A DNA stretch of 64,000 nt from Hyphomicrobiaceae bacterium (GTDB lineage: Bacteria > Pseudomonadota > Alphaproteobacteria > Rhizobiales > Hyphomicrobiaceae), in contig WBUN01000010.1 of NCBI GenBank assembly GCA_008933705.1, positions 40,810 through 104,809 on the forward strand, read 5' to 3'. The notes below the pieces were generated by a model. It was not told the origin of the DNA. It was given only the letters and a program-made list of their open reading frames with translations, and did no database searches. How positions within the stretch are numbered: the first letter of the stretch is position 1; the number at the start of each line of letters is the position of its first letter. This document shows, in pieces, positions 25,315 to 63,876 of the stretch. The position numbers were made by a program, and so were the translations under genes.

Positions 25315-25392
25315 AGCACGATGGCGATTGCGGACAGTGCGCGAGGCAGGCCCGCAGCGTTCGAAGCTGCCGTTCAGGCCCAGCTTCTTTAC

Positions 25393-25408
25393 ATCCGAAC
25401 ATTCGGAT
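25393..25408. promoter_or_regulatory. ATYC-N8-GRAT palindrome, candidate persulfide-repressor operator (site 1)
   Basis: ATCC-GAACATTC-GGAT inside an 18 bp perfect palindrome (CATCCGAACATTCGGATG, 25392-25409). It lies 124 bp ahead of the exported DsrE-like gene. The spacing matches eight other sites in this window, so it is likely bound by the ArsR-type regulator encoded at 44596 or a paralogue. Confidence 0.65.
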
Positions 25409-25435
25409 GCATTAATATGCTGATCAACTGTGGGG

Positions 25436-25486
25436 GCCGCGCTTGTGGGCGCGGCTTGACAGGGCACTGCCGGAGCATTCCGGCAG
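25436..25486 (+). other. Two tandem hairpins in the leader of the dsrE-like gene
   Basis: GCCGCGC-TTGTGG-GCGCGGC (25436-25455) is followed by CTGCCGGA-GCAT-TCCGGCAG (25467-25486). A TTGACA sits between them at 25455-25460, so the second hairpin may be at the transcript 5' end. There is no T-run, so they are not standard terminators. They may stabilise the mRNA. Confidence 0.45.
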
Positions 25487-25531
25487 CAAGAAAACACAAC
25501 AGCAAAGACAAAACACACAGGGAGAACGCCA

Positions 25532-26053
25532 ATGACCGATATCGATCGCAGACACCTTCTCGGTGCCCTTGCCGTCGGCGGGGCGGCCGTTGCCACCACC
25601 GTTGCCGCGCGCGCGGCACCTGTGGAACTCAAGCTCACCGACATGAAGAAGGAGGCAGAGGTTGCGTGCCTCTATCATTGCGACTTCGGCGACGACAAGC
25701 GCTACGACGCCATGCTTCGCAACATCAACAACCACCTGTCCGTCTACAATTTCGATCCTCTCGGCACGAAGATCGTCATCGTCGCGCACTCGGTGGGCAT
25801 CAAATATCATCTGAAGAGTCTCGCGGGCACACCGTGGGAGAAGCACCCGCCGATCGATCCGGAATTGGAGAAGCGCATGAAGGCGCTCTCGCAATACGGG
25901 GTGGAGGTCTATCTGTGCAAGATCACGTTCGATCGCACCAAGATCAACCTCCAGCTTGCGAAGGACGAGCCCTACATCAAGCTGGTCCCTTCGGGCGTTG
26001 CGACGGTGGCGGCGTTGCAGAGCAAGGGCTTCGCCTATCTGAAGGTGGGTTGA
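25532..26053 (+). CDS. Tat-exported DsrE-family protein
   Basis: A 173-residue DsrE/F-fold protein with a twin-arginine signal (DRRHLLGALAVGGAAVATTV), cleaved near ARA-AP. The mature part has cysteines at 46 and 50 (VACLYHCDF) and Cys129 in the conserved GVEVYLCKITF strand, the usual position of the persulfide-carrying Cys in this fold. Most DsrE relatives are cytoplasmic, so a folded, Tat-exported version suggests sulfane-sulfur handling in the periplasm. It follows sorAB but has its own leader with an operator. RBS GGGAG is 9 nt before the ATG. Confidence 0.75.
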   Translation: MTDIDRRHLLGALAVGGAAVATTVAARAAPVELKLTDMKKEAEVACLYHCDFGDDKRYDAMLRNINNHLSVYNFDPLGTKIVIVAHSVGIKYHLKSLAGTPWEKHPPIDPELEKRMKALSQYGVEVYLCKITFDRTKINLQLAKDEPYIKLVPSGVATVAALQSKGFAYLKVG

Positions 26054-26087
26054 CAGGCACGCGCCGCCCCTGCGCGTACACACAGGC

Positions 26088-26106
26088 CCGGCCCTGATAG
26101 GGCCGG
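26088..26106 (+). terminator. Hairpin after the dsrE-like gene
   Basis: CCGGCCCT-GAT-AGGGCCGG forms an 8 bp stem with a 3-nt loop 35 bp after the stop codon. No U-tract follows, so termination may be partial or Rho-assisted. Confidence 0.5.
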
Positions 26107-26482
26107 CCATCCGCAGCCGCGTTACGCCAACACCTTGCGGAGCCTGCAGCGGCCTCCGGCAACGTGGGCCAGCACTGCTGCCCAGACGGCGCCCGCTGAA
26201 CCCACTCGATGGACCGGTAACCGCCACGCCTGCCCGTGGCACCACCCGGCTCAGGCAATCTCAGCCGGGCATGCTCGGCCTCAAGCCGGGCTCAGCCAAC
26301 GGTCGAGCGCTTTGCGCGTTTGCACCGGGCGGCGGAAATATATCCTCTCCCGCCCCATTAGTATGAACATCCATTCTTCTCGGAAATCTGCCGCCGGAAC
26401 AGCATGTTTATTTCATATATATGGGCCTTACAGGTTGATTTTTCTCCGGTGCGGCGATATTTCACCTGCAGGCGGAGGCCCG
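26107..26482. other. Intergenic region upstream of the DUF442 gene
   Basis: About 375 bp without a gene. The first part is GC-rich with repeated GCCGGGC blocks; from 26340 to 26470 it is AT-rich and probably holds the promoter of the downstream gene. A partial half-site (GAACATCCATTC) resembles the sulfur operators but does not fit their N8 spacing. Confidence 0.45.
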
Positions 26483-26978: not shown

Positions 26979-28301
26979 CTAACGCGCCGGGCGCGGCGCG
27001 CTTGATGCCGTGTCGTCGAGGTGCACGGCAAGGAGCTCGACTAGGCTCTCGAGCTCGCCATCCCAGCCCAGAGCCGCCTTGCTCTCGTCCATGGTCAAGC
27101 GACAGTTCGAGCAGGCGGACACCATCATCGCCGCGCCGGTTTCGCTCACCTGACGCATCTTGATGCGGAAGACCTCATGGCGCACCTCCGCCGCACGGCC
27201 GAGCGCCTGCACACCGCCACCGCCTCCACAGCACCAGTTGTAGTTGCCGGTCGGCGTCATCTCCCGGAAGTCGCTTGCAACCCCGTCGAGGAGATAGCGC
27301 GCATCGGCGGTTGCACCGCCGCGCCGCGAGATCTGGCAGGGGTCGTGGTAGGTCATCGATGTATCGATCGGCTTGAACCTGAGCCGTCCATCGCGCTTGT
27401 GCTGCGCAAGGAATTCCGTGATGTGACGAACCTCGTAGGGAAGCGGGCGGCCGAGGATGTTGGCGCCGGACCAGCGCAGCACGCCGAATGCATGACCGCA
27501 CTCGGGCACAATCACGGTCCTGGCGCCCAACGCTTCGGCAGCCTCCGTAATGCGCGCTATCAACGTTCTCGCCACGTCCGGCTTGCCGGCCAGGAAGCCG
27601 AAATTCGTCGACTCGTATCCGCGCGACGACAACGTCCAGTCGACGCCGGCGTGGTTCAAGAGCTTGGCCATGGCGACGACCGAGCGCGGATACTTCATCA
27701 GCTCGATCGAAGAGATCAGAAGCAGTACGTCGGCCTTGGGCTTGTCGAGGCGGATCTCGGTCTCGTGCTCATCGGCGAGCCATTCGACCCGATCCTTCAG
27801 GACCTCCCTTGTGACGCCCAGCGGACTACCCCTGTCGCGTGCATTGTCGGCCGCTTGCAGCAGATCGGGAGGCCCGAGCCCCGCGGCGACGAACGCCTGG
27901 CGCGACAGTGCGACGACGGAGGCAATATCGATCGCCATCGGGCAAACCACAGTGCACCGTCCGCACATGGTGCACGAATCGAAGATCAGCTCCTCCCATT
28001 CCTCGAGATCCTTGCGGCTGAGCTCCGGCGCGAGACCCAGCGTTCGACGCAGGCCGGCGAAGGGTGCCTTGTGGCGCCTGTAGACCTTGGTGATGGGCGC
28101 AAGCTTCATCGCCGGGACACGGCGCGGATCGCGTGTCACCTCGTGAAAATGGCAGGCTTGCGCGCACTGGCCACAGTGGACGCAGGCGTCGAGATAGGAC
28201 GCGATGTGCGCGTTGGTCAGCGCGTTGAACTTGTCCACCGCGGCCTGCACGTTGATCGAGCGCGCCGGAGCATCGGCGATTGCGCTTGCCGCAGACGTCA
28301 T
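26979..28301 (-). CDS. DsrK/HdrD-like iron-sulfur protein
   Basis: A 440-residue Fe-S protein. Two ferredoxin-type [4Fe-4S] motifs (CVHCGQCAQACHF and CTMCGRCTVVCP) are in the N-terminal third. CCG-type cysteine segments follow (ECGHAFG, YHDPCQIS, NWCCGGGGG, CSNCRLT), which in HdrD/DsrK bind the special cluster that works on disulfides. It is translationally coupled to the NarI-like gene upstream (ATGA). With that gene it resembles a DsrMK/HdrDE pair, which exchanges electrons between quinones and a thiol/disulfide. Because it follows the sHdr-lbpA operon, it is a candidate electron partner for sHdr; that is inference. Confidence 0.8.
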   Translation of the reverse strand: MTSAASAIADAPARSINVQAAVDKFNALTNAHIASYLDACVHCGQCAQACHFHEVTRDPRRVPAMKLAPITKVYRRHKAPFAGLRRTLGLAPELSRKDLEEWEELIFDSCTMCGRCTVVCPMAIDIASVVALSRQAFVAAGLGPPDLLQAADNARDRGSPLGVTREVLKDRVEWLADEHETEIRLDKPKADVLLLISSIELMKYPRSVVAMAKLLNHAGVDWTLSSRGYESTNFGFLAGKPDVARTLIARITEAAEALGARTVIVPECGHAFGVLRWSGANILGRPLPYEVRHITEFLAQHKRDGRLRFKPIDTSMTYHDPCQISRRGGATADARYLLDGVASDFREMTPTGNYNWCCGGGGGVQALGRAAEVRHEVFRIKMRQVSETGAAMMVSACSNCRLTMDESKAALGWDGELESLVELLAVHLDDTASSAPRPAR

Positions 28302-28942
28302 GGGGTAAACCCTCTCCGGCCCAAGGCTGCGCCGGTGTTGACCCGAGCGAGGAGGAAGGTGAAAGCGTGCGTCAGGCGGCTGAAGGGAAAGTAGATCATC
28401 AGCGCCTCGACCGACAGCATGTGCAGCATCCTCAGCCCGGCGTGCGCCTCCTGCAATGCGAGGCACCCGGTGAGCATGGCCACGAACGTGAGCCACACGC
28501 CGACGTGGTCGTCGACGTCGGAGAGCTGACGGGTCACAGGGTCGGTAAGGCGGCGCACATAGAGCAGAATGAGACCGGCGAAGGCCGCTTCCGCCGCGAT
28601 GATGAAGGCCCAGTGCGGCATGGCCGGCCACGGCAGGGCGACGATGCCCGCATTGATGAACGCAACATGCGGCGCCGCGAACAGCAGCAGCGCAAAGAGG
28701 CCGATATGAAACAGGTAGCCCGTCACGAAGTGGTAGACGGTGCGGCCAAGGTTGCCGCCATGCGGCACCGAGTGCAGCAACACGGCCTTGGCGGCGCCGA
28801 CAATCGGCGACCGCCGGCTTACGCTCAGGTCCCGCGCGCGGCCAATCATGAAGATGGCGGCGATGCGCCAGGCGATGCCGAGCACGAAGATGGCGGATGC
28901 GGCGTACCACACAGGCCCCTCGATGAATTCCATCGCCGTCAT
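28298..28942 (-). CDS. NarI/DsrM-like membrane cytochrome b
   Basis: A 214-residue integral membrane protein with five predicted spans (about WYAASAIFVLGIAWRIAAI, YHFVTGYLFHIGLFALLLF, WAFIIAAEAAFAGLILLY, VWLTFVAMLTGCLAL, MLHMLSVEALMIYFPF). Several histidines inside the spans (for example FHIG, MLHML, LTHAF) are suited to bind heme b. This is the architecture of NarI, DsrM and HdrE. It overlaps its neighbours by 4 nt on both sides, so the three genes form a tight unit. RBS GGAGG precedes the ATG. Confidence 0.8.
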   Translation of the reverse strand: MTAMEFIEGPVWYAASAIFVLGIAWRIAAIFMIGRARDLSVSRRSPIVGAAKAVLLHSVPHGGNLGRTVYHFVTGYLFHIGLFALLLFAAPHVAFINAGIVALPWPAMPHWAFIIAAEAAFAGLILLYVRRLTDPVTRQLSDVDDHVGVWLTFVAMLTGCLALQEAHAGLRMLHMLSVEALMIYFPFSRLTHAFTFLLARVNTGAALGRRGFTP

Positions 28943-30036
28943 CTCTGTGCCTCCCAGACCGCGCGGTCGCCGCGCTCCGCGGCCGCGACCTCGGCACGGC
29001 GGATGTCGGCCGTCGCCGACGTCTTGTGCTCCGCCCACCACAGATCGTGATGCTCCTTGGCCCAGTTCTCATCGACCGTGCCGCGCGTCATGCCCTCGAG
29101 TGCACCCTCCATGCCGATCGTGCCGAGATAGATGTGGCCGATGGCGAAAGCGATGAAGAGCAGGGCCGCGATGGCGTGGGCAAGATTGGCAAGCTGCACC
29201 ACGGAACGGTCGCCGATCACGGAGGGCAAGAGCAGCGCCATCCCGCTTGCCGAGAGGACAAGCCCCATGACGACCGACCACCAGAACCAGCTCTTCTCGC
29301 CGAAATTGTACTTGAGCGAGCTGGCGTGACCGCCGAAGAAGCCGCCCCCTTTGAGAAGCCAGGTGAAGTCCACACCGCGATAACCGTTACCGCGAACAAA
29401 GGTGACGCACAGCGCGACCACGGCGGGGATGAAGAGCGGCCCGAACAGATTGTGGGCTTCAATCGACGCACTGGCAGCAAGCGCAAAGGCGTGCTGGCCG
29501 ATGATCGGCGGGAGGAGATATCTGCCGAAAAGCAGGAGAAGGCCGGTAACGGCGAGAAGCACAAACAGAACGGCCGCGAACCAGTGCACGATGCGCTGAA
29601 CGAGCGAGAAGCGAGGGATCACCCGCCCTGTCCGGCCGCCTTTGATGGGGATACGCCCGCGAACCAGGAGGTATGATCCGGCGACCCCAAGGACGGCAAG
29701 CAGCAGCCCGCCTCCATAGGCCACCGTCGTGTCGTGACGCAGCCGCCACGTCTCGCCCGCGCTCTGGATCAACACGCCGCCCTCGGGCCGCGGAAAGACC
29801 ACCGTTCCGCTCTTGCCGCGGCGTATATCGCGCCACATCTCCGGGCTCGACTGGCCGCCCTGCGCGGTGTTCGGTCCCGAGTAGCTTTCTGCGGGGAAGG
29901 GAGGCGGCGACTGCGCCATTGCGTATGGAGCGAGCAGCACCATCGCGAGGACAATCCAAACCACCCCTGCCGCCCACCCAAGCCGCCGCCATCGCCGGGC
30001 GACTGATCCGGACTGCCAATCTCTCACAAAGGCCAT
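28939..30036 (-). CDS. Formate dehydrogenase gamma-type cytochrome b556 subunit
   Basis: A 365-residue membrane protein similar to the FdnI/FdoI gamma subunit. It has an N-terminal span or signal, about five further spans, and histidines in IVHWFAAV, AHNLFGP, LAHAIAA and GHIYLGT that match the heme-binding pattern. No formate dehydrogenase catalytic subunit is nearby, so it probably serves another dehydrogenase by delivering electrons to quinone. It starts the three-gene unit with the NarI-like and DsrK-like proteins. The ATG at 30036 is preferred over a GTG 9 nt upstream. Confidence 0.8.
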   Translation of the reverse strand: MAFVRDWQSGSVARRWRRLGWAAGVVWIVLAMVLLAPYAMAQSPPPFPAESYSGPNTAQGGQSSPEMWRDIRRGKSGTVVFPRPEGGVLIQSAGETWRLRHDTTVAYGGGLLLAVLGVAGSYLLVRGRIPIKGGRTGRVIPRFSLVQRIVHWFAAVLFVLLAVTGLLLLFGRYLLPPIIGQHAFALAASASIEAHNLFGPLFIPAVVALCVTFVRGNGYRGVDFTWLLKGGGFFGGHASSLKYNFGEKSWFWWSVVMGLVLSASGMALLLPSVIGDRSVVQLANLAHAIAALLFIAFAIGHIYLGTIGMEGALEGMTRGTVDENWAKEHHDLWWAEHKTSATADIRRAEVAAAERGDRAVWEAQR

Positions 30037-30056
30037 GAGAACCACGCCGAGTTGTC

Positions 30057-30173: not shown

Positions 30174-30620
30174 CTAAGGCGCGGCGCAGCCGCCGAAGCC
30201 GTCCGCCTGCATCTTCGCCTCGTATTTCGCCGTCACCTGCGCCCCAAGCGTCAAGGTCGCCTTTACAGCGCCCCAGTCAGCCGGCTTCAGGATGATGAAC
30301 CACCCCTTCACGTAAGGATCCTCGTTGGCAAGCTTGGGATTGGCGACCAGATCATCGTTGACCTTGACAACCTCGCCGGCCGCCGCCGACTTGGCTGGTC
30401 CCACCCACTTGCCGCTCTCGACCGTCGCGCAGCTCTTGCCCGCATCGACCGTGCGGCCGACCTTCTTCGGCGTGAAAGCGACAAGCTGGCCGGCCATGGC
30501 TGTGGCTACGGTGGTCATGCCGAGCTTGACGGTGCCGTCGTCCTGCTCCTGGAACCAGATGTGATTGTCCACATCATAGAGCAGGTGGTCGGGCAGATTG
30601 CATCCTTTGACGATGGGCAT
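30174..30620 (-). CDS. lbpA: Lipoate-binding protein LbpA of the sHdr pathway
   Basis: A 148-residue GcvH-like protein. The lipoyl hairpin is TVESGKWVGPAKSAAAGEV, with Lys71 as the expected lipoylation site and the usual trailing AAGEV turn. It differs from glycine-cleavage GcvH by extra cysteines (Cys64, Cys145) and by its location at the end of the sHdr operon. In this pathway the lipoamide is thought to carry sulfur between sHdr subunits while it is oxidised to sulfite. RBS GGAGTAGG precedes the ATG. No gcvT or gcvP is near. Confidence 0.93.
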   Translation of the reverse strand: MPIVKGCNLPDHLLYDVDNHIWFQEQDDGTVKLGMTTVATAMAGQLVAFTPKKVGRTVDAGKSCATVESGKWVGPAKSAAAGEVVKVNDDLVANPKLANEDPYVKGWFIILKPADWGAVKATLTLGAQVTAKYEAKMQADGFGGCAAP

Positions 30621-30655
30621 GTCCTACTCCGCAATTCTCGCTTCGTGTTTCCGCC

Positions 30656-31141
30656 TCAGCGCTGGTCGTCGCCGCTGCGCAGCGGCTTTGCCGCGCAGCA
30701 AAACTCTCCGAGCCCCGCGACCTGCATTTTGCCGGAGACGAACAGGCACAGATGCTTGGCAATCATGGCCGCCAGCTTCGTGCGCTTTGCCCGGTCCGGA
30801 TGGCTCGGCTCGAGCATGATCAGGTTGTGGTGATAGACCAGCTCGCGACACGTCTCGCGGCACGCGTTGAAGGAGGGCTCACCCTTGGCTCCCTGCCGAT
30901 GCAGGGCGAGGAGCCGGAAGCCTTCCCTCTCCTCCCTGGTCGGCGTCTCGCCGCGCGCAAACAGCCAATGCTCGAGCACCTCTTCGCCGAGCGCCAGCAG
31001 CTCACGCACGGTCGCACCCGGATCGCCCGGGCGCTCGGCGAGCTCGTCGATCCTTGCCTCGATGTCGGCAAGAGAGCGCAGGTCCGAGGGACCGTGTCTT
31101 GGCGGCGGCGCGGGGATGGTCAAGGTGGGGCTGGCGGGCAT
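30656..31141 (-). CDS. Conserved sHdr-locus protein of unknown function
   Basis: A 161-residue protein between hdrB2 and lbpA. It is mostly helical, with a conserved-looking cluster NACRETCRELVYHH (Cys94, Cys98, His104, His105), Cys132 and a C-terminal FCC pair (Cys148, Cys149). These could bind a metal or carry persulfide. No signal peptide or span. I do not know its family name; its fixed position in the operon suggests an accessory role for sHdr or LbpA. Confidence 0.7.
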   Translation of the reverse strand: MPASPTLTIPAPPPRHGPSDLRSLADIEARIDELAERPGDPGATVRELLALGEEVLEHWLFARGETPTREEREGFRLLALHRQGAKGEPSFNACRETCRELVYHHNLIMLEPSHPDRAKRTKLAAMIAKHLCLFVSGKMQVAGLGEFCCAAKPLRSGDDQR

Positions 31142-31199
31142 CCGCTTTCGATCCTTCAGGGCGCCGGTGCCCGACGCCGGACTGGCGACATCCAGCGTG

Positions 31200-32144
31200 T
31201 CAGGTCAAACACTTGTCGATAACGAGATCCATGGACTCGGAAATGTTCGTGTGGATGCCCAGTCTACGCGGACCTATGCCCAGAGCAAGACCCAGCAGCT
31301 GCGTGAAGTACATGATCTTGACGCTGGTCTTCTTGCCGAACCGCTTCTCGGCTCTGACCTGATGCATCTCCAGCCCCGTGTGGCATGTCGGGCATTCGGT
31401 GGCGATCACATCGGCGCCCGCGGCCTCGGCGGCCTGCAGAATATTCAACACCAGCCTGGTGGAGGTATCGGAATCCGACAGCGTGTGGGCGCCCCCGCAG
31501 CACGCGGTCTTCAGCGGAAACTCGACGTTCTCCGCCCCGGCGGCCGCGAGCAGGTCGTCCATGAAGTGCGGCTTCGACGTGCTCTCCGAGCCCGGCCCCT
31601 GATCCTTCTCGGGAAAGATGTGGCGCGGACGCACGTACATGCACCCGTAGTAATTCGCCACCTTCAGCCCGGCGAGCTTGCCCTTGGTGCGCTCTCTCAG
31701 CCCTTCCTCCCCGATCGCCTCCTTGATCCAGTCGAGCGCATGGATGGTCTCCGCCTGTCCGGCCTCGTAGGCCTTGTGCCCGGCCTTTCTGGAGAGCTCG
31801 CCGACGACCTCGCGCGATTGGGCATCGTGCTTGAGGTCATACTCCGCCTTCTTGAGATTGTGATAGCAGCCGTTGCACGGGGCCATCACGACGTTCATGC
31901 GGTCAAGATGGACCGCATTGGAGAGCACGCGCGCCGACAGATACGTCTGGAGCTTGGGGTCGACGTTCTTCACCTCCATCGCCCCGCAGCAGTTCCAATT
32001 CTGCACATCCTTGAGACGCAGGCCCAGCTCCTTGGCAACCGCACGGGTCGACACATCGTATCCGTTGCCCGAGCCCTCCAGCGCGCAACCCGGATAGTAG
32101 CCGACGGTGTCGTACTTCTTCGTCTTGTTGGCCTTCTCCGACAT
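31200..32144 (-). CDS. hdrB2: sHdrB2, heterodisulfide reductase-like subunit B
   Basis: A 314-residue protein with two CCG domains: YYPGCALEG...NCCGAMEVKN...APCNGCYHNL and YYGCMYVRP...ACCGGAH...ECPTCHTGLE. In HdrB such domains hold non-cubane [4Fe-4S] clusters that cleave disulfides. In sulfur oxidisers the sHdr complex runs in the oxidative direction on protein-bound sulfane sulfur. The start MSEKANKTKK has AAGGAG 8 nt upstream. It is preceded by hdrC2 and followed by the 161-residue protein. Confidence 0.92.
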   Translation of the reverse strand: MSEKANKTKKYDTVGYYPGCALEGSGNGYDVSTRAVAKELGLRLKDVQNWNCCGAMEVKNVDPKLQTYLSARVLSNAVHLDRMNVVMAPCNGCYHNLKKAEYDLKHDAQSREVVGELSRKAGHKAYEAGQAETIHALDWIKEAIGEEGLRERTKGKLAGLKVANYYGCMYVRPRHIFPEKDQGPGSESTSKPHFMDDLLAAAGAENVEFPLKTACCGGAHTLSDSDTSTRLVLNILQAAEAAGADVIATECPTCHTGLEMHQVRAEKRFGKKTSVKIMYFTQLLGLALGIGPRRLGIHTNISESMDLVIDKCLT

Positions 32145-32154
32145 CGTCCGCTCC

Positions 32155-32952: not shown

Positions 32953-32964
32953 CGTCGCTGTTCC

Positions 32965-33825: not shown

Positions 33826-33837
33826 AGGTGACCGCGA

Positions 33838-34890: not shown

Positions 34891-34960
34891 CGAGACTAAT
34901 CCTCCAAGACTTGCAGCGGCCCTTGAGATCGGACCGCAGTTATTGTTGGCCCAGCGCCCC

Positions 34961-36358: not shown

Positions 36359-36406
36359 GGCATCCTCCACTTTCACGCCGGGCCGCGCGTGCACCCGGCT
36401 GCGGGA

Positions 36407-37156: not shown

Positions 37157-37199
37157 GAGCGTCACGGCCCTTACGAAGCGTAGGCAGAGGCGGCAAGGA

Positions 37200-37577: not shown

Positions 37578-37673
37578 TGTTCCTCCTCCCTGCGCTAAGG
37601 CGCATCTGTGTCGTTGACGCAATCCTCTTCAGTTTTGCAGCATAGCGCCCAACCGATTTGACCGCAATCAAAT

Positions 37674-37689: not shown

Positions 37690-37722
37690 ATCGCGGCGCT
37701 GACCAGCTGCGAGCATGCATGA

Positions 37723-50699: not shown

Positions 50700-50770
50700 G
50701 TCTTTCCTCCCCTGCCGCAATCCCGACCGCCATACTCGGCATGTCGGTTCTATCATGCGTCAATTCTTAT

Positions 50771-52056: not shown

Positions 52057-52149
52057 GCGCATGACGGAGTGCCGGCAGCCTGCCCGCGGGACCGATCTCG
52101 GCCCCGTGCGTGGCGACGGCCGGCGCCATGAAGCGTAAGATGTGCCGCC

Positions 52150-53410: not shown

Positions 53411-53486
53411 GCCAATCCTTCCTACGCAACCCTGCGCACCAAGCGCCGACCGACCACGTCAATTCTGGATACGCTGAGACAACGCC

Positions 53487-55406: not shown

Positions 55407-55511
55407 CGTGACCTTGGGTGTTGCGACTGGGGGGGCGCCGGGACAGTCGGCGCCTTCCGTCGTTCCGGGGTATAGTTGCGCTCGCACCCGTCGAAAGGAA
55501 TGCATGGTCCC

Positions 55512-56495: not shown

Positions 56496-56513
56496 AGCGC
56501 CGCGCAGCGGCGA

Positions 56514-57098
56514 TCAAAGCCGCTCGTTCCCCCGATCACGGGCAGATGCGGCCCGGTGAAGATCCCGAAGCGGCGTGGTCAGCGTACCGCTGTTGGAGGT
56601 CAGACCGCCCTCGCGTTCGGCGCCGATGGCCCACTTCAACAGGGCCAGGCACTTGCGCTTGCGGTTGGCGACATACTCGAGTAGCACGACAAAGGTCGGC
56701 CCATTCTTGCGCGGCCGCATGTCGGGCAAGCCCTTCTCGCGATTGCCCGCCACCTCGATCTGCAGGGCGACCCAGTCGATGAGCTCCGGCTCGCCGAGGA
56801 GGCGCACGCGATCGAGAACCGCGCGCCATTGGTCCGAGCGCTTGATGCCGGCCCGATCGCGATAGGGGGTTTGATAGACGAAGCGGTGGATCGCCCGCCA
56901 TTTTGCCAGTTGCAGCTGGTAGCGCTCCCGCTCCGGGAGACCGGAAACGGACCTCGCTGCTGCCTCCTGTGCTACCGCCGCCCGGATCTCTGCAACGTGT
57001 GCCGCAAGCTCGGCGCGCGTCGGCCGCCGCCGCGCCTCCAGGCGCGCAAGCAGCCGCTCGCCGGCATCACACGCGAACCGTGGCGATTGATCGGTCAT
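56514..57098 (-). CDS. Conserved hypothetical protein
   Basis: A 194-residue basic, helical protein starting MTDQSPRFACDAGERLLARL. It has many Arg residues and a WRAIHRFVYQTPYRDR segment that looks conserved. No signal or span. I do not recognise the family. The longer 273-residue frame is rejected because its first 79 residues look non-coding. It is convergent to the YkgJ gene. Confidence 0.55.
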   Translation of the reverse strand: MTDQSPRFACDAGERLLARLEARRRPTRAELAAHVAEIRAAVAQEAAARSVSGLPERERYQLQLAKWRAIHRFVYQTPYRDRAGIKRSDQWRAVLDRVRLLGEPELIDWVALQIEVAGNREKGLPDMRPRKNGPTFVVLLEYVANRKRKCLALLKWAIGAEREGGLTSNSGTLTTPLRDLHRAASARDRGNERL

Positions 57099-57315
57099 CG
57101 GGCGCTCACAGGACGGCATCCGAAACGCGATCCATCCTATCACCGCTGCCCGATCGGCGCCTATCCATGCCGGTGCAGACAAGAGTGCCGAGGACGAAGG
57201 GAGGGCATCGTTCGGTTCTGGCGGACCGCCTCCTGACAGCCGCGAGACGCGCGTGGAGGCGAAGTCCAGGAGGCGCAGCGCCGTCAAGATCGGGGGCACA
57301 ACGCCGCGGGCGCCG

Positions 57316-57804
57316 TCAGCGATTGGGACGCGCAATCGCGCGGCCTGCCTGCGGCGGCACGGGAAGCCCTCCGTGCGCTTCCATCAAGCGCGCGAGGGTT
57401 TCGCGCTGGCTGGGCGTCCACGGCTCTGTCTGGCGCTTGGTCAGGGCCACGTTGGCGATGGCGAGCTCGGTGGTGGCTGCGATCTCGCCGGCCTCGGTTC
57501 GCATGAACATGATGAGGTGAACCCGCTTCTCGGCGAATGCCAGCGCCTGCACCTCGATGCGAACCGTTTCACCCTCGCGCAGCTCCTTCTGATAGCAGGT
57601 GTGCATCTCCAGGAGGAACGGCGCCGCGGTGGCGTCGCGCCCGGCTGACAGGCCGATACGCTCGAGAAACCCCTCGATCGCAAGGTCGAACAGGACGATG
57701 TACTGCGCCGCCCGCAAGTGACCGGAAGCATTCAGCCATTCGGGTCGCACTGTCACCCGCTGCAAGAACAGCGGCTCGGCGTCGAATTGGGACTCATCGG
57801 TCAC
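57316..57804 (-). CDS. Hotdog-fold thioesterase
   Basis: A 162-residue protein of the 4HBT family. VRPEWLNASGHLRAAQYIVLFD has the typical substrate-binding and catalytic Asn/Asp positions, and LMEAHGGLP is at the C-terminus. It should hydrolyse an acyl-CoA of unknown chain. A GTG at 57804 is taken because AGGGCGG is 6 nt upstream; the GTG two codons earlier is too close. Confidence 0.75.
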   Translation of the reverse strand: MTDESQFDAEPLFLQRVTVRPEWLNASGHLRAAQYIVLFDLAIEGFLERIGLSAGRDATAAPFLLEMHTCYQKELREGETVRIEVQALAFAEKRVHLIMFMRTEAGEIAATTELAIANVALTKRQTEPWTPSQRETLARLMEAHGGLPVPPQAGRAIARPNR

Positions 57805-57833
57805 AGGCACCCGCCCTATCTCGCACAGAGCAA

Positions 57834-57857
57834 AGCAGGCGCAGTTGTGCGCCTGCT
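57834..57857 (-). terminator. Intrinsic terminator-like hairpin after fccB
   Basis: AGCAGGCGCA-CAAC-TGCGCCTGCT on the minus strand, a 10 bp perfect stem with a 4-nt loop followed by TTGCTCT. It is 22 bp past the fccB stop and before the thioesterase gene. Confidence 0.65.
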
Positions 57858-57878
57858 CCCCTCCATGTCAAGGCAATC

Positions 57879-59177
57879 TCACGACACCTTCTTGGCGAAG
57901 ATGTCCGAGACGATGCCGCTGTACCAGCCGAGGCTTTCCTCGAATGTCTGCTTGCGCAGCGCCGCATCCTCGCCGGGCTTGGAAACGAAACCGTCGGCCG
58001 GGGCAAGCTTGCCCTCCTTGGGCGTGTAGTTCGCGCCGACCTTGACGGAGTTGTTCGGCGCCAACATGGACCAACAGGTGTTGCGGTAGCGGGCCGGGAA
58101 CTTCTGCTTGCCGGCGAGAGCCGCCTCGATCGCGTTGGCCACGACCTTGGCTTGGCTGTTGGCCGAGAACGCCGACTTCGGCATCTCAGCGGCTATGGAG
58201 GCATCCCCCAGGACATAAACGTCCTTGGCCTTCTTGGAGGAGAAGTCCTCGCCGTTCACCGGGCACCAGTCGCCTTCGGTAACGCCGGCCTTGGCGGCGA
58301 TCTCGCCGGCCTTCTGAGCCGGGATGATGTTGGCGACGGCCGCCTTGACCTTCTTGCCTGCCTTGGTCTCGATCTCCATGGTCTTCGCATCGAGCCTAGC
58401 GATGGCGTGGCTGTCGATCTCCGTCGACAGATTGATCTCGATGATATTTTTGTAGATGCCCTCGAACGCCTCCTTGAAAACGGGACCTTTCGAGATGATG
58501 TCCTTCTTGGGATCGAGCACCACCAGCTTGGACTTCGGCTTCTTCGTCTTGATGTGGTGAGCGATCATGCACATGCGCTCGTACGGCCCCGGCGGGCAGC
58601 GATAGGGTCCCGGCGGGTTGACCATCACCACGACCCCGCCATCGGGCATCGCCTCGAGCTGCTTCTTGAGGAGCTGGGTTTGGGGCCCGGCCTTGTAGGC
58701 GTGCGGCATCTTCTCCGCCGCTTCGGCCGAATAGCCCGGAACGCTCTCCCATTTGAAGTCGATGCCAGGCGACAGGACGAGATTGTCGTAGGCAAGCGTG
58801 CGGCCGCCACTGAGCTTCACCGTCTTCTTGGCGGTGTCGATGCCGGTCGCAAGCTCATGCACCATCTTGACGCCGAGCTTGGCCAAATCGTCGTAGCGAT
58901 GGACCAGCGAATCATACGTGCGGAAGCCGCCGAGATAGAGATTGGAGAAGAAGCAGGTGGTGTACTGCTTGCCGGGTTCTACGAGCGTGACGTCGAGCTT
59001 CGGCGAACCCTTCTTGAGGTAGTGCGCAACCGTCGCGCCGCCCGCGCCGCCGCCGATGATCACAACCTTGGCGGCAGCCTGTGCAATGGCAAAGTTGCCG
59101 AACCCAGTGAGGGGAACACTTGCTGCCCCCGCCACCCCGATCAACTTGCCGAACTCACGCCTGTTGAGGTCCTTCAT
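57879..59177 (-). CDS. fccB: Flavocytochrome c sulfide dehydrogenase-like flavoprotein
   Basis: A 432-residue exported flavoprotein. A Tat signal (NRREFGKLIGVAGAASV) is followed by an FAD motif (VVIIGGGAGGATVAHYLK). The FccB redox-cysteine regions YTTCFFSNLYLGG and RYRNTCWSMLAPNN are present. It would oxidise sulfide or a thiol to sulfur in the periplasm, passing electrons to a cytochrome c; the usual FccA is not adjacent. It is divergent from soxYZ. Confidence 0.87.
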   Translation of the reverse strand: MKDLNRREFGKLIGVAGAASVPLTGFGNFAIAQAAAKVVIIGGGAGGATVAHYLKKGSPKLDVTLVEPGKQYTTCFFSNLYLGGFRTYDSLVHRYDDLAKLGVKMVHELATGIDTAKKTVKLSGGRTLAYDNLVLSPGIDFKWESVPGYSAEAAEKMPHAYKAGPQTQLLKKQLEAMPDGGVVVMVNPPGPYRCPPGPYERMCMIAHHIKTKKPKSKLVVLDPKKDIISKGPVFKEAFEGIYKNIIEINLSTEIDSHAIARLDAKTMEIETKAGKKVKAAVANIIPAQKAGEIAAKAGVTEGDWCPVNGEDFSSKKAKDVYVLGDASIAAEMPKSAFSANSQAKVVANAIEAALAGKQKFPARYRNTCWSMLAPNNSVKVGANYTPKEGKLAPADGFVSKPGEDAALRKQTFEESLGWYSGIVSDIFAKKVS

Positions 59178-59359
59178 ATTCTCCTCCCTGGGAATAATTG
59201 ACCGAGCGACCTGCTCGCTCCCTGCATTTGCCCGCATTTCCGCCTATTGAAGGTCAGCAATGGACCTCTATTAAGACCGGCGGCACTCCGGCGGGCTGGC
59301 CTGCTCGAATCGGGCAGGCTGCCCCCTTCTTGGGTCTCACAGCTACATAGAACCTGTAC

Positions 59360-59375
59360 ATCCACATATTTGAAT
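59360..59375. promoter_or_regulatory. ATCC-N8-GAAT operator (site 8), fccB/soxY divergent promoter
   Basis: ATCC-ACATATTT-GAAT with flank GAATAT, in the 365 bp gap between fccB and soxY. This region also holds the promoters of both. No gene is seen in it. Confidence 0.65.
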
Positions 59376-59542
59376 ATTATACAATGGTAGAGAGATTGCG
59401 AAAAAAGCGCCATGTGGCGAATGAGACGCTCGATCTCGCGGCTGGGCCCCAACACTACCGCCCAAGCCTCGCGGCTCAAGAAATCCGGTGAACGGATCTG
59501 GAACCAACAGGGCAAACCCGCCCGCACAACGGAAGAGGAAAC

Positions 59543-60025
59543 ATGAAGCGACAATTGAGACTGGACATCGTGCATCGTCGCGACGTGCTGCTTGGCGCGG
59601 CCGGGGCGGCAGCCTTTATCTCGCTCCTTGCGATGGGCGGCAAGGCTTCGGCGCAAGAGAATGTTCCGACCGCTGCTGACCTCCTGAAGAGCATCCACGG
59701 CGACGCCAAGCCGACGGAAGCCAGAATCAATGTGGACCTGCCGGAGATCGCCGAGAACGGAAACACAGTGCCGTTCGGCATCGTCGTCGAGAGCCCCATG
59801 ACGGGCACCGACTACGTGAAGGCGATCCACGTGGTGGCGACGGGCAATCCGCGGCCCGAAGTCGCGACCTTCCTGCTCACGCCGGATTCGGGCAAAGCGG
59901 CCATCTCAAGCCGCATGCGCCTCGGCAAGACGCAGGACATCATCGTCGTCGCGGAGATGAGCGACGGCAAGTTCTACATGGGCAAGCGCGCCGTCAAAGT
60001 GACGATCGGCGGCTGCGGCGGCTAG
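59543..60025 (+). CDS. soxY: SoxY sulfur carrier subunit
   Basis: A 160-residue exported carrier. A Tat-like signal ([15 protein letters not shown]) is cleaved near ASA-QE. The C-terminal swinging arm ends GGCGG, with Cys158 as the sulfur-binding residue. It holds thiosulfate-derived sulfane groups while Sox enzymes act on it. No soxAX, soxB or soxCD is in this window. RBS GGAAGAGG precedes the ATG. Confidence 0.96.
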   Translation: MKRQLRLDIVHRRDVLLGAAGAAAFISLLAMGGKASAQENVPTAADLLKSIHGDAKPTEARINVDLPEIAENGNTVPFGIVVESPMTGTDYVKAIHVVATGNPRPEVATFLLTPDSGKAAISSRMRLGKTQDIIVVAEMSDGKFYMGKRAVKVTIGGCGG

Positions 60026-60044
60026 GGATTGGGGAGAAACGAAA

Positions 60045-60368
60045 ATGGCTGCAAAACCGCGCATCAAGATTCCGGACAAGGCCAAGGTCGGCGAGGTCAT
60101 CGAGATCAAGACGCTCATTGCGCACGTGATGGAGACCGGGCAGCGCAAGGACAAGGACGGCAAACCCATCCCGCGCAACATCATCCACACGTTCGAGGCC
60201 AAGTTCGCAGGCAAGCCCGTTTTCACGGCCAAACTGTTCTCGGGCACCTCGTCCAACCCCTACATCGCCTTCTTCATGAAGGTGCCGGGCCCCGGCGATC
60301 TGGAGTTCCTGTGGGTGGACGACGCCGGCGAGAAGGTCACCGAGAAGATGAAGCTCAACGTCGCGTGA
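60045..60368 (+). CDS. soxZ: SoxZ sulfur carrier partner
   Basis: A 107-residue partner of SoxY, with RIKIPDKAKVGEVIEIKTLI and an immunoglobulin-like fold ending FLWVDDAGEKVTEKM. It forms the SoxYZ heterodimer; export is by piggy-back on SoxY since it has no signal. It lies 19 bp after soxY. Confidence 0.96.
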   Translation: MAAKPRIKIPDKAKVGEVIEIKTLIAHVMETGQRKDKDGKPIPRNIIHTFEAKFAGKPVFTAKLFSGTSSNPYIAFFMKVPGPGDLEFLWVDDAGEKVTEKMKLNVA

Positions 60369-60381
60369 TATCGAGCCCCTC

Positions 60382-60406
60382 GGGTCCGGGATACGATCCC
60401 GGACCC
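60382..60406 (+). terminator. Strong hairpin after soxYZ
   Basis: GGGTCCGGGAT-ACG-ATCCCGGACCC is an 11 bp perfect stem with a 3-nt loop, 13 bp after the soxZ stop. No T-run; may also block the convergent deacetylase-like gene transcript. Confidence 0.65.
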
Positions 60407-60479
60407 AGAGGACGACGCGCGTGCGTCGAAGCTGTCAGTCAAGGCATGCGCGTTGCGTCAGACGCGACGCGAGATGCCC

Positions 60480-61643
60480 CTATCCGATCGGCAGCGCCGC
60501 GTCGATGACCTCATAGATGCGCGCGCGAACTGCTCCTCTGTTGGCGGAATCGGCGATGCTGCTGAGCCACGCCGGATCGCGGTCATCGTCGTCGACGAGA
60601 TCGCAGCTCAATCGAGCCAGAATATCCTGTGCCGCCGGCGGCAGCCGGTCGGGTATCGGCTTGCCCGACATCTGCGCCCACAACCCAGCCCACATCCGTG
60701 CCGTCGTCCACGGATTGTACCCGCCGCCGCCGAGAACCACGGCATGCCTGGCAAGCGACGTGCTGACCTGAACGGCTGCGGCGAGCGCCTTGTTTGACAC
60801 CTCCATCGACGACAGCGGGTCGCCCCTCAGTGCATCGGCGCCGCACGTTACGACGACCGCTTCGGGCTGCAACCCCTCGAGCCTGCGCCGGCACAGCTCC
60901 TGAATGACCAGCAGGAACTCGTCATCGTTGACGTGTCGCGGAACGGGCAGGTTGATGACGCGACGGCTCGGCCGATCCTGGAGCCCGCCGGTTCCCGGCC
61001 ATCGCCCCTCCTCGTGAATGGAGGCCAGCGTGACACGCTCGTCCGCCGCGAACGCCGCCTCGACGCCATCGCCGTGATGGGCATCAAGGTCGACGTAGAG
61101 CACGCGGTTGAGCCCGGCGTCGAGGAAACGCAGCACGGCGAATACAGGATCATTGAAGTAACAGAAGCCGGCCGCACGATTCGGCCGGCCATGATGGGTG
61201 CCGCCTCCGGGATGGAACGCCAAGCGGCCTTGCATCGCCAGTTCGGCGGCAAGGATCGAGCCGCCCACGCTCGCCCTCGCGCGATCCCACAAGCCTGCGA
61301 ACAACGGGCACTCCATCGTTCCGACATTGTAGCGCTCGCGAACAGCGGGCGTGGCCATGAGCGCGCGGGCACTTGCCTCCAAAGCGTCGAGATAGTCCGG
61401 CGTATGGAACCGCTCGAGCGTGTCGCGGTCGGGGAGCGGTGCATGGCGCAGGGTGTCGGGAGAGAGCCAGTCCATTGCCTCGCACAGATCCAGCACCGCC
61501 CCGTGCCGCATGATGGACAGGGGATGGTTGGCGCCGAACCCAGGCTGGCGGAAGATCGGATGGGTGATGAACACCGAAGGCCTGGATGCCGCCGTCTCGG
61601 CCGGCCCCTCCTCCGGGACCGCTGCCTCATCAAGACGCGACAT
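60480..61643 (-). CDS. Histone-deacetylase-fold protein (AcuC/class II-like)
   Basis: A 387-residue zinc-amidohydrolase of the deacetylase superfamily. HPGGGTHHGRPNRAAGFCYFND, YVDLDAHHGDGVEAAF and VLGGGGYNP hold the metal ligands and catalytic His pair, so it is likely active. The natural substrate (acetyl-lysine or an acetylated small molecule) is unknown. It is the last gene of a presumed yeeE-DUF442-hyp operon. The ATG at 61643 was chosen over a TTG upstream. Confidence 0.88.
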   Translation of the reverse strand: MSRLDEAAVPEEGPAETAASRPSVFITHPIFRQPGFGANHPLSIMRHGAVLDLCEAMDWLSPDTLRHAPLPDRDTLERFHTPDYLDALEASARALMATPAVRERYNVGTMECPLFAGLWDRARASVGGSILAAELAMQGRLAFHPGGGTHHGRPNRAAGFCYFNDPVFAVLRFLDAGLNRVLYVDLDAHHGDGVEAAFAADERVTLASIHEEGRWPGTGGLQDRPSRRVINLPVPRHVNDDEFLLVIQELCRRRLEGLQPEAVVVTCGADALRGDPLSSMEVSNKALAAAVQVSTSLARHAVVLGGGGYNPWTTARMWAGLWAQMSGKPIPDRLPPAAQDILARLSCDLVDDDDRDPAWLSSIADSANRGAVRARIYEVIDAALPIG

Positions 61644-61682
61644 GTGATGCTGGATCCTCACGACGACCAACGCCCGCTCGAT

Positions 61683-62042
61683 TCAACCGCCCTCGGGCCG
61701 CGGCACGCGCGAGAGGCATCCCACCAGCCGCTCCAGGCGCCGGGCGTCGAGGGCGCGCCACGCAGCGAGAAGGCGGTCTTCAGCGTTGCTGCCGCCGATC
61801 GTGGCCGCGGCGTAGAACGCCTGCAGGAACGGATCGAGCGCCTCCTTGAGCTCCCAGTTGCGCAGGCTATCAGGGGTCCAGGCCAGCATGCGGCCCTCCT
61901 TCTCGAAGGCCTGCACATTGGGGGCCGAGCAAGCCAACTCCTGCAGGCGCTTCAGCCGAGCCAAGTCCTCCCGCAGCAACTGGCAACGGAAATAGCTCTC
62001 TTCCGTCAGCAGCTCGTTCTCGAGTCGTGCCACCAGTTGCAT
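61683..62042 (-). CDS. Hypothetical helical protein
   Basis: A 119-residue protein starting MQLVARLENELLTEESYFRC, with GAGGAGG 5 nt before the ATG. Mostly helical, two cysteines, no signal or span. It lies between a DUF442 gene and the deacetylase-like gene with gaps of 33 and 39 bp, so it is probably in their operon. Family unknown. A GTG at 62075 would add 11 residues. Confidence 0.6.
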   Translation of the reverse strand: MQLVARLENELLTEESYFRCQLLREDLARLKRLQELACSAPNVQAFEKEGRMLAWTPDSLRNWELKEALDPFLQAFYAAATIGGSNAEDRLLAAWRALDARRLERLVGCLSRVPRPEGG

Positions 62043-62075
62043 GGCCGCCTCCTCGATGGCTTCACCCCTGGCCAC

Positions 62076-62594
62076 TCATTCGTCGTCTTCCTCGAGCATC
62101 TCACGGCGCATGTCCATCTTTGCCGCGAGGCCGGATACGTCATATCCGGCGCGGGCGCATGTGGTGACGAGCGCTTCGGTTGTCGCCTCGGTGACGGATG
62201 CCAATGCCCACAAGGCCGCCGACCGTCCGCCCGACTGGCAGAACGCGTAGATCGGTTGCGGCAACGCCTTCAGGGCTTGTGCAAAGGCGCGGACGTCCTT
62301 CTCGAGTGGATTGCGTCCCTCGACGGGGATGTGCATGTAGGCCAGGCCCAAGCTTGACGCGACGGCTTCAGCCTCGGCCGATGTCATCGGGCTGTCCTTC
62401 TCGCCGTCCGGCCGGTTGTTGATCAGAGAGCGAAAGCCCCCGCCGGCAAGGATCGCTATCTCCTCCCGAGTGGCAGAGCGGCCGACGGCAACGCCCTCCG
62501 ACAAGCGCCGCGGGACCAGCGGTATGGCGCCGGCCGAGGGCGGACAGGTGCCGGCGCAAGCTGACGCCAGATCATTGCTCGGGTCGGACGTCAT
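62076..62594 (-). CDS. TIGR01244/DUF442 phosphatase-fold protein, second copy
   Basis: A 172-residue relative of the protein at 26483. The loop FCQSGGRSA holds the nucleophile Cys, and GFRSLINNRPDGEKD marks the family. It has an N-terminal extension of ~30 residues with two extra Cys. Downstream of the YeeE-type transporter gene, suggesting work on imported thiosulfate or persulfide. RBS GGAGAAGG precedes the ATG. Confidence 0.78.
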   Translation of the reverse strand: MTSDPSNDLASACAGTCPPSAGAIPLVPRRLSEGVAVGRSATREEIAILAGGGFRSLINNRPDGEKDSPMTSAEAEAVASSLGLAYMHIPVEGRNPLEKDVRAFAQALKALPQPIYAFCQSGGRSAALWALASVTEATTEALVTTCARAGYDVSGLAAKMDMRREMLEEDDE

Positions 62595-62651
62595 CGAGGC
62601 CTTCTCCAACCGGGCGGCACGACCACGGGAGAGTTCGACTGGCCGCCGAGC

Positions 62652-63755
62652 CTACACATCGGCCACCAGCAGCCTTTCCATGTACTTCATCCCTGCGATG
62701 CCACCGAAGACAATGGCCGCGAAGGTGACGAACGAGCCGGCGGCCAAGGTGGAGATGCCGGTGACGGCCTGCCCAATGGTGCATCCGAGCGCCATCACGC
62801 CACCCACGCCCATCAGCGCGGCTCCGCCCAGGTTGCGCAGCATGTCGCGGACGTCGGCAAACGTCGTGAGCTGGAACCGACCCGAGGCCTTGGCCGCAAC
62901 GAACGCACCAAGGATGGCACCGAGGACGGTCGCGACGCCGAAGCCCGGAATGCGTGCGGCCGTAAAGCGCTGCAGCCATTCGACCGTATCTCCGGTCGGG
63001 CGCACATAAGTGAGCGAGATTGGGGCCGTAGGCCTCTCGGCCAGCTCGTCGAACGCCAAGCCTGTAAGCGCCCAGCCCGCCACCACGCACAGCCCGACGC
63101 CGATCCCCGACCAGACCTGGACGGGAGAGCCGCGAAACGCTGCATCGGCAAAGCAGTAAAGAAGCGCAAGACCGGCGATCGCAAGCGCCAGCACCACATC
63201 GGCGCGCGCAACGCTCAGGCCGAGATAATGATTGGCGACCGTGCCAAGACCCTGCGTTCCGATCTTGAGATTGGCAAGGTTGATCGCCGTTGTCTGGTCG
63301 AGCCAATTGCGGATCGGTCCGAGCAATCCTCCCATGGCCATATAGGCGAACAGGGCGATGACCAGCAATGTCACCAGCGCGCGCAGATCACCGCCACCGA
63401 GGCGCGCCAGGTTCTTGCTCGCGCAGCCTCCCGCAAGCACCATGCCGAAGCCGAACATCAAGCCGCCGACCAGATTGCCGAACCAGTTGAAGCTGGCCGT
63501 CAGATACATGGATTTCGACAGGTCGACGAGGCCCGCCATCTGCAGCATCTGGGTGCCGATGAGTGCGACCGCGCCGGCAAGGACCCAGGCCCGGAAGCGG
63601 CGGAAATCGCCAAAGGACATGAAATCGGAGATCGATCCCATCGTGCAGAAGTTCGTGGCAAAGACGATCCAGCCGAAGGCGAAGCCGATGATGAGCCCGC
63701 CGACGGCAAGGGCGGTCGGCGCGTCTTTCGTTATGATGTCAGTGAGCACGTCCAT
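62652..63755 (-). CDS. YeeE/YedE-family thiosulfate transporter-like membrane protein
   Basis: A 367-residue integral membrane protein with about nine spans in two related halves. Conserved Cys motifs TNFCTMGS, LAGGCASKNL and ALGCTIGQAV match the YeeE/YedE (TsuA-like) family, where cysteines pass thiosulfate through the membrane. Its start follows a sulfur operator 54-69 bp upstream, so it is likely in the same regulon. It heads the operon with DUF442, a hypothetical and the deacetylase-like gene. Confidence 0.88.
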   Translation of the reverse strand: MDVLTDIITKDAPTALAVGGLIIGFAFGWIVFATNFCTMGSISDFMSFGDFRRFRAWVLAGAVALIGTQMLQMAGLVDLSKSMYLTASFNWFGNLVGGLMFGFGMVLAGGCASKNLARLGGGDLRALVTLLVIALFAYMAMGGLLGPIRNWLDQTTAINLANLKIGTQGLGTVANHYLGLSVARADVVLALAIAGLALLYCFADAAFRGSPVQVWSGIGVGLCVVAGWALTGLAFDELAERPTAPISLTYVRPTGDTVEWLQRFTAARIPGFGVATVLGAILGAFVAAKASGRFQLTTFADVRDMLRNLGGAALMGVGGVMALGCTIGQAVTGISTLAAGSFVTFAAIVFGGIAGMKYMERLLVADV

Positions 63756-63808
63756 CGGTTTTCTTCCCGTATCAGCGGAATAGCTTCTTTCTGTTCATTT
63801 TACTATAT

Positions 63809-63824
63809 ATTCGCATGAACGAAT
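63809..63824. promoter_or_regulatory. ATTC-N8-GAAT operator (site 9), upstream of yeeE
   Basis: ATTC-GCATGAAC-GAAT with flanks ATATTC...GAATGT (63807-63826). A full match to the core, 54 bp before the yeeE start. Confidence 0.75.
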
Positions 63825-63876
63825 GTTTGCTTGCAAGCCGGCCCTGCCGCCGTCTTGCGGGGGGCAGGGGGCGGCG

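Follow-up and report, generated by a model that had tools for sequence, protein, structure and literature searches.

How far does one operator reach among the sulfur oxidation genes of a bacterium that keeps several oxidation routes, and which repressor reads it? The question is raised by a 64,000-nucleotide stretch, referred to here as the window, from a Hyphomicrobiaceae bacterium (assembly GCA_008933705.1, contig WBUN01000010.1, positions 40,810 to 104,809), which forms the end of contig 20 in our numbering of a 5.30 Mb genome in 145 contigs. Genes for sHdr, lipoate assembly, TusA, Qmo, Sat, AprBA, FccB, SoxYZ, and a YeeE-type transporter are accompanied in the window by intergenic palindromes of the type ATTC-N8-GAAT, ATATTC-N8-GAATAT in the extended form. 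The palindromes likely serve as operators for a sulfur-oxidation regulon that spans the genome, with the sHdrR-type ArsR protein encoded in the window as the predicted repressor, probably together with a SoxR orthologue and a second sHdrR-type protein. Control of sHdr, lip, and yeeE/soxT genes (and of sox genes) by this type of repressor is already known; the new element is the predicted site ahead of qmo/sat, aprBA, and, above all, dsrA.

Predicted Operator Sites in the Window

The nine 16-mers of the form ATYC-N8-(G/T)(A/G)AT listed in the original prediction were recovered where it had placed them, all with the 8-nt spacing and all intergenic ahead of sulfur units, with 12-183 bp separating each from the start codon that follows (refined starts), and annotation returned the neighbors it had described, namely exported DsrE, ArsR, SoxY, YeeE, TusA, Sat, AprBA, SoxZ, FccB, and a metallo-beta-lactamase fold protein. 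The list was incomplete, with six more plus-strand core matches present (positions 3035, 25401, 35907, 42965, 44068, and 48023). Exact ATTC-N8-GAAT is found at four of the nine listed sites and at 44068, the other five listed sites differing by one or two changes.

A position matrix built from 25 relatives' sites was used to rank the 63,981 positions of the window; the ranks are not wholly independent, because the source sites were chosen by closeness to the same 20-mer. The predicted operators comprise (i) ATATTCGCATTTATGAATAT at 37672-37691, a full 20-mer palindrome ahead of the dsrE3-sHdr operon on the minus strand (rank 1); (ii) 63807-63826, ahead of the yeeE/soxT-type transporter gene on the minus strand (rank 2); (iii) ATATTCACACTTCCTAATAT at 42981-43000, between lipS1 (minus) and the metallo-beta-lactamase gene (plus) (rank 3); (iv) 59358-59377, between fccB (minus) and soxYZ (plus) (rank 4); (v) 50769-50788, between qmoA (minus) and sat (plus) (rank 5); and (vi) 44521-44540, ahead of the sHdrR-type arsR gene itself and 58 bp from its ATG (rank 8). 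The putative operator ahead of exported dsrE (25391-25418) can be read in two registers that overlap with an 8-bp offset (25393-25408, rank 15, and 25401-25416, rank 6), with 25399-25418 as the better 20-mer, and tandem predicted operators precede tusA (44068-44097), where 44068-44083, the second exact match ahead of this gene, and 44082-44097 both read ATTC-N8-GAAT. The weakest of the nine listed sites are those of dsrE (25393, rank 15) and aprBA (52896, rank 12; operator 52894-52913), the latter with a weak right half, TGAT.

Chance is excluded in the intergenic setting only. Across the whole window, ATTC-N8-GAAT at up to one mismatch occurs 17 times versus 15.7 in shuffles (40 of 100 shuffles as high) and the degenerate core 24 times versus 12.2 (2 of 100 as high), and such whole-window counts, being near chance, were rejected as a test. 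The 8,010 bases between genes, in contrast, hold 11 of the 15 plus-strand core matches versus a shuffle mean of 0.64, and all five exact sites versus a mean of 0.09, neither figure being reached in any of 1000 shuffles. No spacing of 2-7 or 9-15 has more than one intergenic core match, and N16 has six, because several operators have a third half-site 8 bp away. It is thus very improbable that AT-rich promoter elements, or palindromes arising by chance in AT-rich spacers, account for these sites in place of operators: the half-site end GAATAT is -10-like and the whole-window counts fit chance, but same-region shuffles fail to reproduce the signal in the window and in the dsrA, qmoA, and dsrE3 promoters elsewhere, and spacing 8 beats all 14 other spacings, N16 coming second in the window with 6 to 11.

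A third half-site, in direct orientation and 8 bp away, is common in the operators of this genome (25393-25416, 44523-44538, and 50763-50786 in the window; positions 13494 and 19051 of locus L068), and 14 regions of the genome hold seven direct half-site pairs at 8 bp versus seven inverted pairs at N8. As a general operator grammar the direct repeat was rejected, given two pairs in 46 regions of relatives versus seven in these 14.

Distribution across the Genome

Exact ATTC-N8-GAAT occurs 33 times in the genome, five of them in the window. The expectation that a genome scan would single out sulfur genes held for ATATTC-N8-GAATAT at zero to one mismatch, where nine places were found in the whole genome (the window and contig 46 with four each, contig 26 with one) and six of the nine precede sulfur genes, the remaining three lying ahead of a PhsA-like molybdoenzyme gene and a FadL-like porin gene, both of the same sox-dsrE2 cluster, and at a BigR-like arsR. 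Contig 46 carries soxAXB, a SoeB/DsrO-like iron-sulfur subunit, DsrE2 (209.8 bits, cut-off 210), the porin, and the molybdoenzyme; the stretch separating soxA from the soeB-like gene holds two of its four sites, with one more ahead of the porin gene and one ahead of the molybdoenzyme gene, and dsrE2 has three-mismatch sites only.

The same expectation failed at two mismatches, with 31 places comprising three in the window (one coding) and 28 outside (20 coding and 8 intergenic). The matrix loses specificity at this level because 20 of the 28 outside hits are coding, a proportion that also speaks for chance palindromes, and the two-mismatch hits were for this reason rejected as regulon members with the exception of dsrA. 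The dsrA gene lies on contig 51, which carries dsrAB, a DsrE-family gene, dsrC, and cysG, and the two-mismatch site ahead of it is one of the eight intergenic outside hits; the other seven showed no match in a small sulfur reference set. At up to three mismatches, 478 places were counted in the genome versus 120 for a reversed control pattern.

That the sulfur units form one regulon stands insofar as one operator class marks a sulfur regulon, whose predicted extent is larger than first proposed: it would take in the soxA/soeB-like, porin, and molybdoenzyme genes and, less strictly, dsrA and dsrE2, all on other contigs. It is disfavored that the dsr and sox genes entered the assembly through mixed-up contigs, since the tetranucleotide composition of the contig 46 and contig 51 stretches correlates at 0.987 and 0.982, respectively, with that of sampled DNA from elsewhere in the genome. 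A further 16-mer, ATTCACGTTCTTGAAT (once with one change), matches the bare core and is dispersed over seven contigs (C48, C82, C85, C105, C123, C132, and C138); it looks like a repeat family and was set aside as an operator.

The ArsR Protein of the Window

The arsR gene (44596-44967, plus strand) encodes a protein with an ArsR winged-helix domain (PF01022, E 2.2e-12, above the cut-off), and lies in one cluster with shdr, lip, and the yeeE/soxT-type gene, yeeE being 18 kb off. Cys48 and Cys114, 66 residues apart like the pair of persulfide sensors, are present as predicted, and Cys61 besides, so that C48/C61/C114 parallels C50/C63/C116 of Hyphomicrobium denitrificans sHdrR, with the third cysteine 13 residues after the first; the Hyphomicrobium authors doubt its general importance. 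The references for comparison come from genome G346, which was treated as H. denitrificans because of its gene order, protein lengths, and cysteines: its two ArsR proteins, of 125 residues with Cys50/63/116 and of 124 residues (start chosen by us) with Cys50/116, fit the published sHdrR and SoxR, as does the gene order of the locus.

The proposal that the window protein is SqrR was not borne out. It is 60% identical to sHdrR and 32% to SoxR of G346, and in a midpoint-rooted tree it groups with the sHdrR clade (support 100/100) apart from SoxR/SqrR, so that by sequence it is an sHdrR orthologue and not SqrR. The BigR model NF040642 of NCBIfam gives 62.3 bits, below the cut-off of 155. The closest solved structures belong to the entry group 13ct/6o8l-6o8o (E 3e-19), among which 6O8N is named SqrR.

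The proposed mechanism would run as follows: (i) without sulfur, repressor dimers on ATATTC-N8-GAATAT would block transcription; (ii) sulfane sulfur would enter via the YeeE-type transporter and be handed on by TusA and DsrE proteins; (iii) it would form a polysulfide bridge between Cys48 and Cys114 of the repressor; and (iv) the bridged repressor would leave the DNA, the units being derepressed together. In Hyphomicrobium, sulfane sulfur bridges the two SoxR cysteines and abolishes DNA binding, and the same is assumed for sHdrR (PMC12423496).

Published Binding Data and Related Systems

Gel shifts with H. denitrificans DNA indicate that N-terminally truncated sHdrR and SoxR bind (i) the soxT1A-shdrR fragment, (ii) the region upstream of lipS1, (iii) the region upstream of dsrE3C, and (iv) the soxA-soxY fragment, and that neither binds a control fragment downstream of tusA (PMC10451225, PMC12423496). 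In G346, the soxT1A-shdrR, lipS1, and dsrE3C regions each hold a one-mismatch site, and the tusA-downstream control region, placed from gene coordinates, holds no site within five mismatches; thus, three of the four bound fragments appear to carry this palindrome and the unbound control none. The authors mention inverted and direct repeats, and no operator consensus was found in the parts of their regulator papers examined.

The H. denitrificans regulon resembles the one proposed here in its orthologous repressors (60% and 63% identity), in the cysteine spacing, and in the sites ahead of YeeE/SoxT, lipS1, and dsrE3C-shdr; it differs in that here qmo/sat, aprBA, exported dsrE, fccB/soxYZ, soxA/soeB-like, porin, molybdoenzyme, and dsrA are also marked. 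Term searches of the available text of PMC12423496, PMC10451225, and PMC11582611 returned no apr, Sat, or reverse Dsr targets. Since G346 has no dsrA match, the H. denitrificans work could not have tested dsrA.

In Paracoccus sox DNA, a two-mismatch site lies in soxW-soxX and a three-mismatch site at soxS-soxV, which we take to be the SoxR target regions. Paracoccus SoxR shares the operator type and differs in clade, with 39% identity to the window ArsR; it is not known to act on genes other than sox. BigR/YgaV proteins are of the same ArsR subfamily with the same cysteine pair, and the BigR-like paralogue of this genome has a similar site, but their linkage is to efflux and detoxification, not energy metabolism. 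SqrR is reportedly a regulator of sulfide-dependent photosynthesis (the subject of a 2017 PNAS paper). The half-sites and spacing of ATTC-N8-GAAT equal the deduced SqrR site (PMC9774250), as predicted, and SqrR of Rhodobacter capsulatus is further alike in its ArsR fold and in a cysteine pair 66 residues apart (Cys41/Cys107); it is unlike the window ArsR in sequence (38% identity) and lies in the SoxR/SqrR clade, outside which the window protein falls.

Conservation in Related Genomes

In the relatives, the best 20-mer was taken per promoter, and spacing 8 was compared with other spacings and with 100 dinucleotide shuffles, the own genome being included in the dsrA, qmoA, and dsrE3 sets; genes were called by a simple script that misses some (e.g., dsrE3 of G337). 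Across the order, dsrA loci with a site number 6 of 30 at up to one mismatch, 10 of 30 at up to two, and 25 of 30 at up to three, the last versus a shuffle mean of 4.4 (maximum 11) and at most 12 for other spacings (30 of 34 matches in 32 genomes, related genomes included). At up to two mismatches, qmoA has a site in 4 of 9 loci (9 of 11, two being without upstream DNA) and dsrE3 in 5 of 10, with a shuffle maximum of 1 in both sets, and sites at two mismatches lie further up between qmoA and sat in G297 and G056. Among 30 ftsZ control loci from 29 genomes, none has a site at up to two mismatches and three have one when three are allowed, which again argues against promoter elements or chance; this set is less AT-rich (GC 0.60 vs 0.53).

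In the family, six of the seven other dsrA loci have a one-mismatch site and one a three-mismatch site, four of the seven coming from one genus, and a site with zero to one mismatch precedes dsrE3 in all 10 genomes with upstream DNA (11 of 16 other sHdr genomes were taken, one of them cut inside dsrE3). Among relatives, sites at up to two mismatches also precede YeeE (6/7), LipS1 (3/8), SoxY (5/15), TusA (5/14), and DsrE2 (4/10). Five genomes hold an sHdrR-clade gene and dsrA with no sHdr match, and in two of them (G023 and G024) the dsrA site has one mismatch.

The operator itself varies: the shdr palindrome of three sHdr genomes is nearer to ATTA-N8-TAAT, and an ATTA-N8-TAAT-like palindrome precedes shdr and some neighbors in other families (L132, L138, L139, L141, L142, and L146). 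Genome G164 combines an ATTA-N8-TAAT-like site with a linked BigR-like ArsR, a candidate for regulator-operator covariation. A separate arrangement is seen in several Hyphomicrobiales metagenome-assembled genomes (L090, L101, L105, L110, L116, and similar), where the sHdrR-clade arsR lies between a three-gene operon and fccB and/or soxYZ; the operon encodes proteins of ~835-905, 670, and 430-500 residues, fatty-acid oxidation-like by size and sequence impression, and no sHdr gene was called on these loci.

Assignment of the Repressors

That one regulator covers all nine sites is an assumption. The genome gives eight ArsR-like matches, of which the best five, those compared for cysteines to the exclusion of three weaker ones, all have cysteines 66 residues apart; they include an orthologue of SoxR on contig 82, 63% identical to that of G346 and beside a YeeE-type gene, and a second ArsR of the sHdrR clade, encoded on contig 51. 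Five proteins thus carry the cysteine pair, and in H. denitrificans sHdrR and SoxR bind the same fragments.

The labor could be split otherwise, with the SoxR orthologue of contig 82 as main repressor and the window ArsR serving only a subset (lip, shdr, and yeeE), a tentative reading of somewhat less than even standing that does not exclude the preferred one. In H. denitrificans, the sox, shdr, and lip genes are under SoxR, with just a subset of them under sHdrR (PMC12423496), which, like the presence of the contig 82 orthologue beside its YeeE-type gene, favors such a split; so do G083, G164, and G281 (sHdr or Dsr genomes), which have the site or the ATTA variant and only other ArsR subtypes found linked. 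Against it, the window arsR sits in the middle of the regulon with its own site ahead, 13 of 30 orthologue loci also have a site at up to two mismatches, and none at that level was found in the 3 kb around the contig 82 gene.

It is rather unlikely that sHdrR-type, SoxR, and BigR-like proteins run parallel regulons, each reading its own subset of ATTC-N8-GAAT-like sites with specificity in flanks or inner bases. The one-mismatch site of the BigR-like arsR, the ATTA-N8-TAAT palindromes ahead of shdr in some other genomes, and the two sHdrR-type paralogues of this genome are consistent with it, but sHdrR and SoxR of H. denitrificans bind the same four fragments in vitro (PMC12423496).

Several observations weigh against the preferred reading, a shared sulfur-oxidation regulon under the window sHdrR-type protein and probably the SoxR orthologue and second sHdrR-type protein. 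As to the sites, (i) the dsrA site of this genome has two mismatches, and noise makes up the majority of genome hits with that many; (ii) the best N8 site of the bound soxA-soxY probe has four mismatches in G346; (iii) a search of 44001-64000 for sigma-70 consensus promoters, meant to place the site relative to -35/-10, found none; (iv) relatives show little ahead of FccB (2/18), AprB (1/4), and SoxB (0/4) at up to two mismatches, and 17 of 30 arsR orthologues lack a site at that level; and (v) in the other three of the five genomes described above that have dsrA but no sHdr match, the dsrA site has two mismatches and lies far upstream (G042), has three mismatches (G059), or has four (G050). 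As to the repressors, the operator class is shared, given that the contig 26 site stands at the start of the BigR-like arsR, which adjoins efflux genes, and that Paracoccus SoxR and BigR-type loci hold similar sites, and the five proteins with the cysteine pair bear on which acts where. In H. denitrificans, moreover, the repressor genes are not thiosulfate-induced and sHdrR is without control of soxAX/soxYZ in vivo (PMC12423496); the former speaks against autoregulation, and the latter against sHdrR acting by itself at soxYZ. Given the former, the site upstream of the window arsR may have a role other than induction.

sHdr and Reverse Dsr under One Proposed Operator

The sHdr and reverse Dsr systems are alternative pathways, rarely found in the same genome. 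Among 297 sampled genomes of the order, 32 have dsrA and 10 have sHdr, both occurring only in the own genome, and among 103 of the family 8 have dsrA and 17 have sHdr, both occurring in two (G000, the own genome, and G027), many of the surveyed genomes being incomplete. In the own genome, sHdr is on contig 20 and reverse Dsr on contig 51. With a like site ahead of dsrA, one signal would induce the two routes, and these rare genomes lend themselves to the question of why both have been retained.

It appears fairly probable that, across Hyphomicrobiales, the reverse Dsr operon is a target of persulfide-sensing ArsR proteins of the sHdrR/SoxR group, so that reverse Dsr, sHdr, and Apr-Sat-Qmo would obey one operator and, in this bacterium, one persulfide signal would turn on all routes. 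A 2010 study of Allochromatium reportedly dealt with dsr regulation. A literature search that mostly stopped short of full text found neither the extension to qmo/sat, aprBA, and dsrA in print nor, for sulfur oxidizers, any named transcriptional repressor of reverse Dsr or of Apr-Sat-Qmo, the latter including the available portions of PMC9774590 and PMC3397948. If the prediction is true, reverse Dsr and sHdr would share one persulfide-responsive operator, and a site from which reverse Dsr control can be predicted at the sequence level makes the question directly testable.

Genes of the Window

Pfam and NCBIfam scans were run on chosen open reading frames only, and searches of the window for RNA families at gathering score and for tRNAs gave none. 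The plus strand encodes the exported DsrE-family protein (25532-26053; PF02635), the metallo-beta-lactamase fold protein (43036-44034, start inferred; the start used for distances, 43057, is no start codon, and an ATG lies at 43036), TusA (44184-44411), Sat, the ATP sulfurylase (50878-52056), AprBA, the APS reductase (52982-55406), and SoxYZ (59543-60368). The minus strand encodes FccB, the flavocytochrome c sulfide dehydrogenase flavoprotein (57879-59177), and the YeeE/YedE family sulfur transporter (62652-63755; PF04143).

Two minus-strand operons precede the tusA region. The dsrE3-sHdr operon, in the order C1B1A-hyp-C2B2-hyp-lbpA (30174-37577), was named by match and gene order, with the dsrE3 start assumed (TTG 37577), sHdr, DsrE3, and LbpA giving loose matches to Hdr-, DsrE-, and GcvH-type models. 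The lipoate assembly operon (37752-42971) comprises LipS1, a geranylgeranyl-reductase-like FAD protein, LipS2, LplA, and a glutamine amidotransferase-like protein, where LipS1, LipS2, and LplA are the best NCBIfam matches but below the curated cut-offs. The sHdr locus of G346 has the sHdr and lip genes in the same order, with 56-91% identity.

QmoA and QmoB are so named because of HdrA-like matches and their place beside sat-apr, and they are followed by HdrC-like and HdrB-like subunits (45457-50699, minus strand), a Qmo variant in which these subunits replace QmoC. Directly upstream of exported dsrE lie SorA/SorB-like sulfite dehydrogenase genes (23569-25314, below the NCBIfam cut-offs), and between exported dsrE and lbpA-sHdr lies a minus-strand membrane module (26979-30045) with TmcB/HmcF-like, TmcC-like, and formate-dehydrogenase-gamma-like proteins; among the 30 best matrix hits, none is a site ahead of either. 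Similar TmcB/TmcC genes (70-71%) flank sHdr in G027 (L261, positions 16978 and 18285), and the Tmc-like module is a possible quinone link for sHdr.

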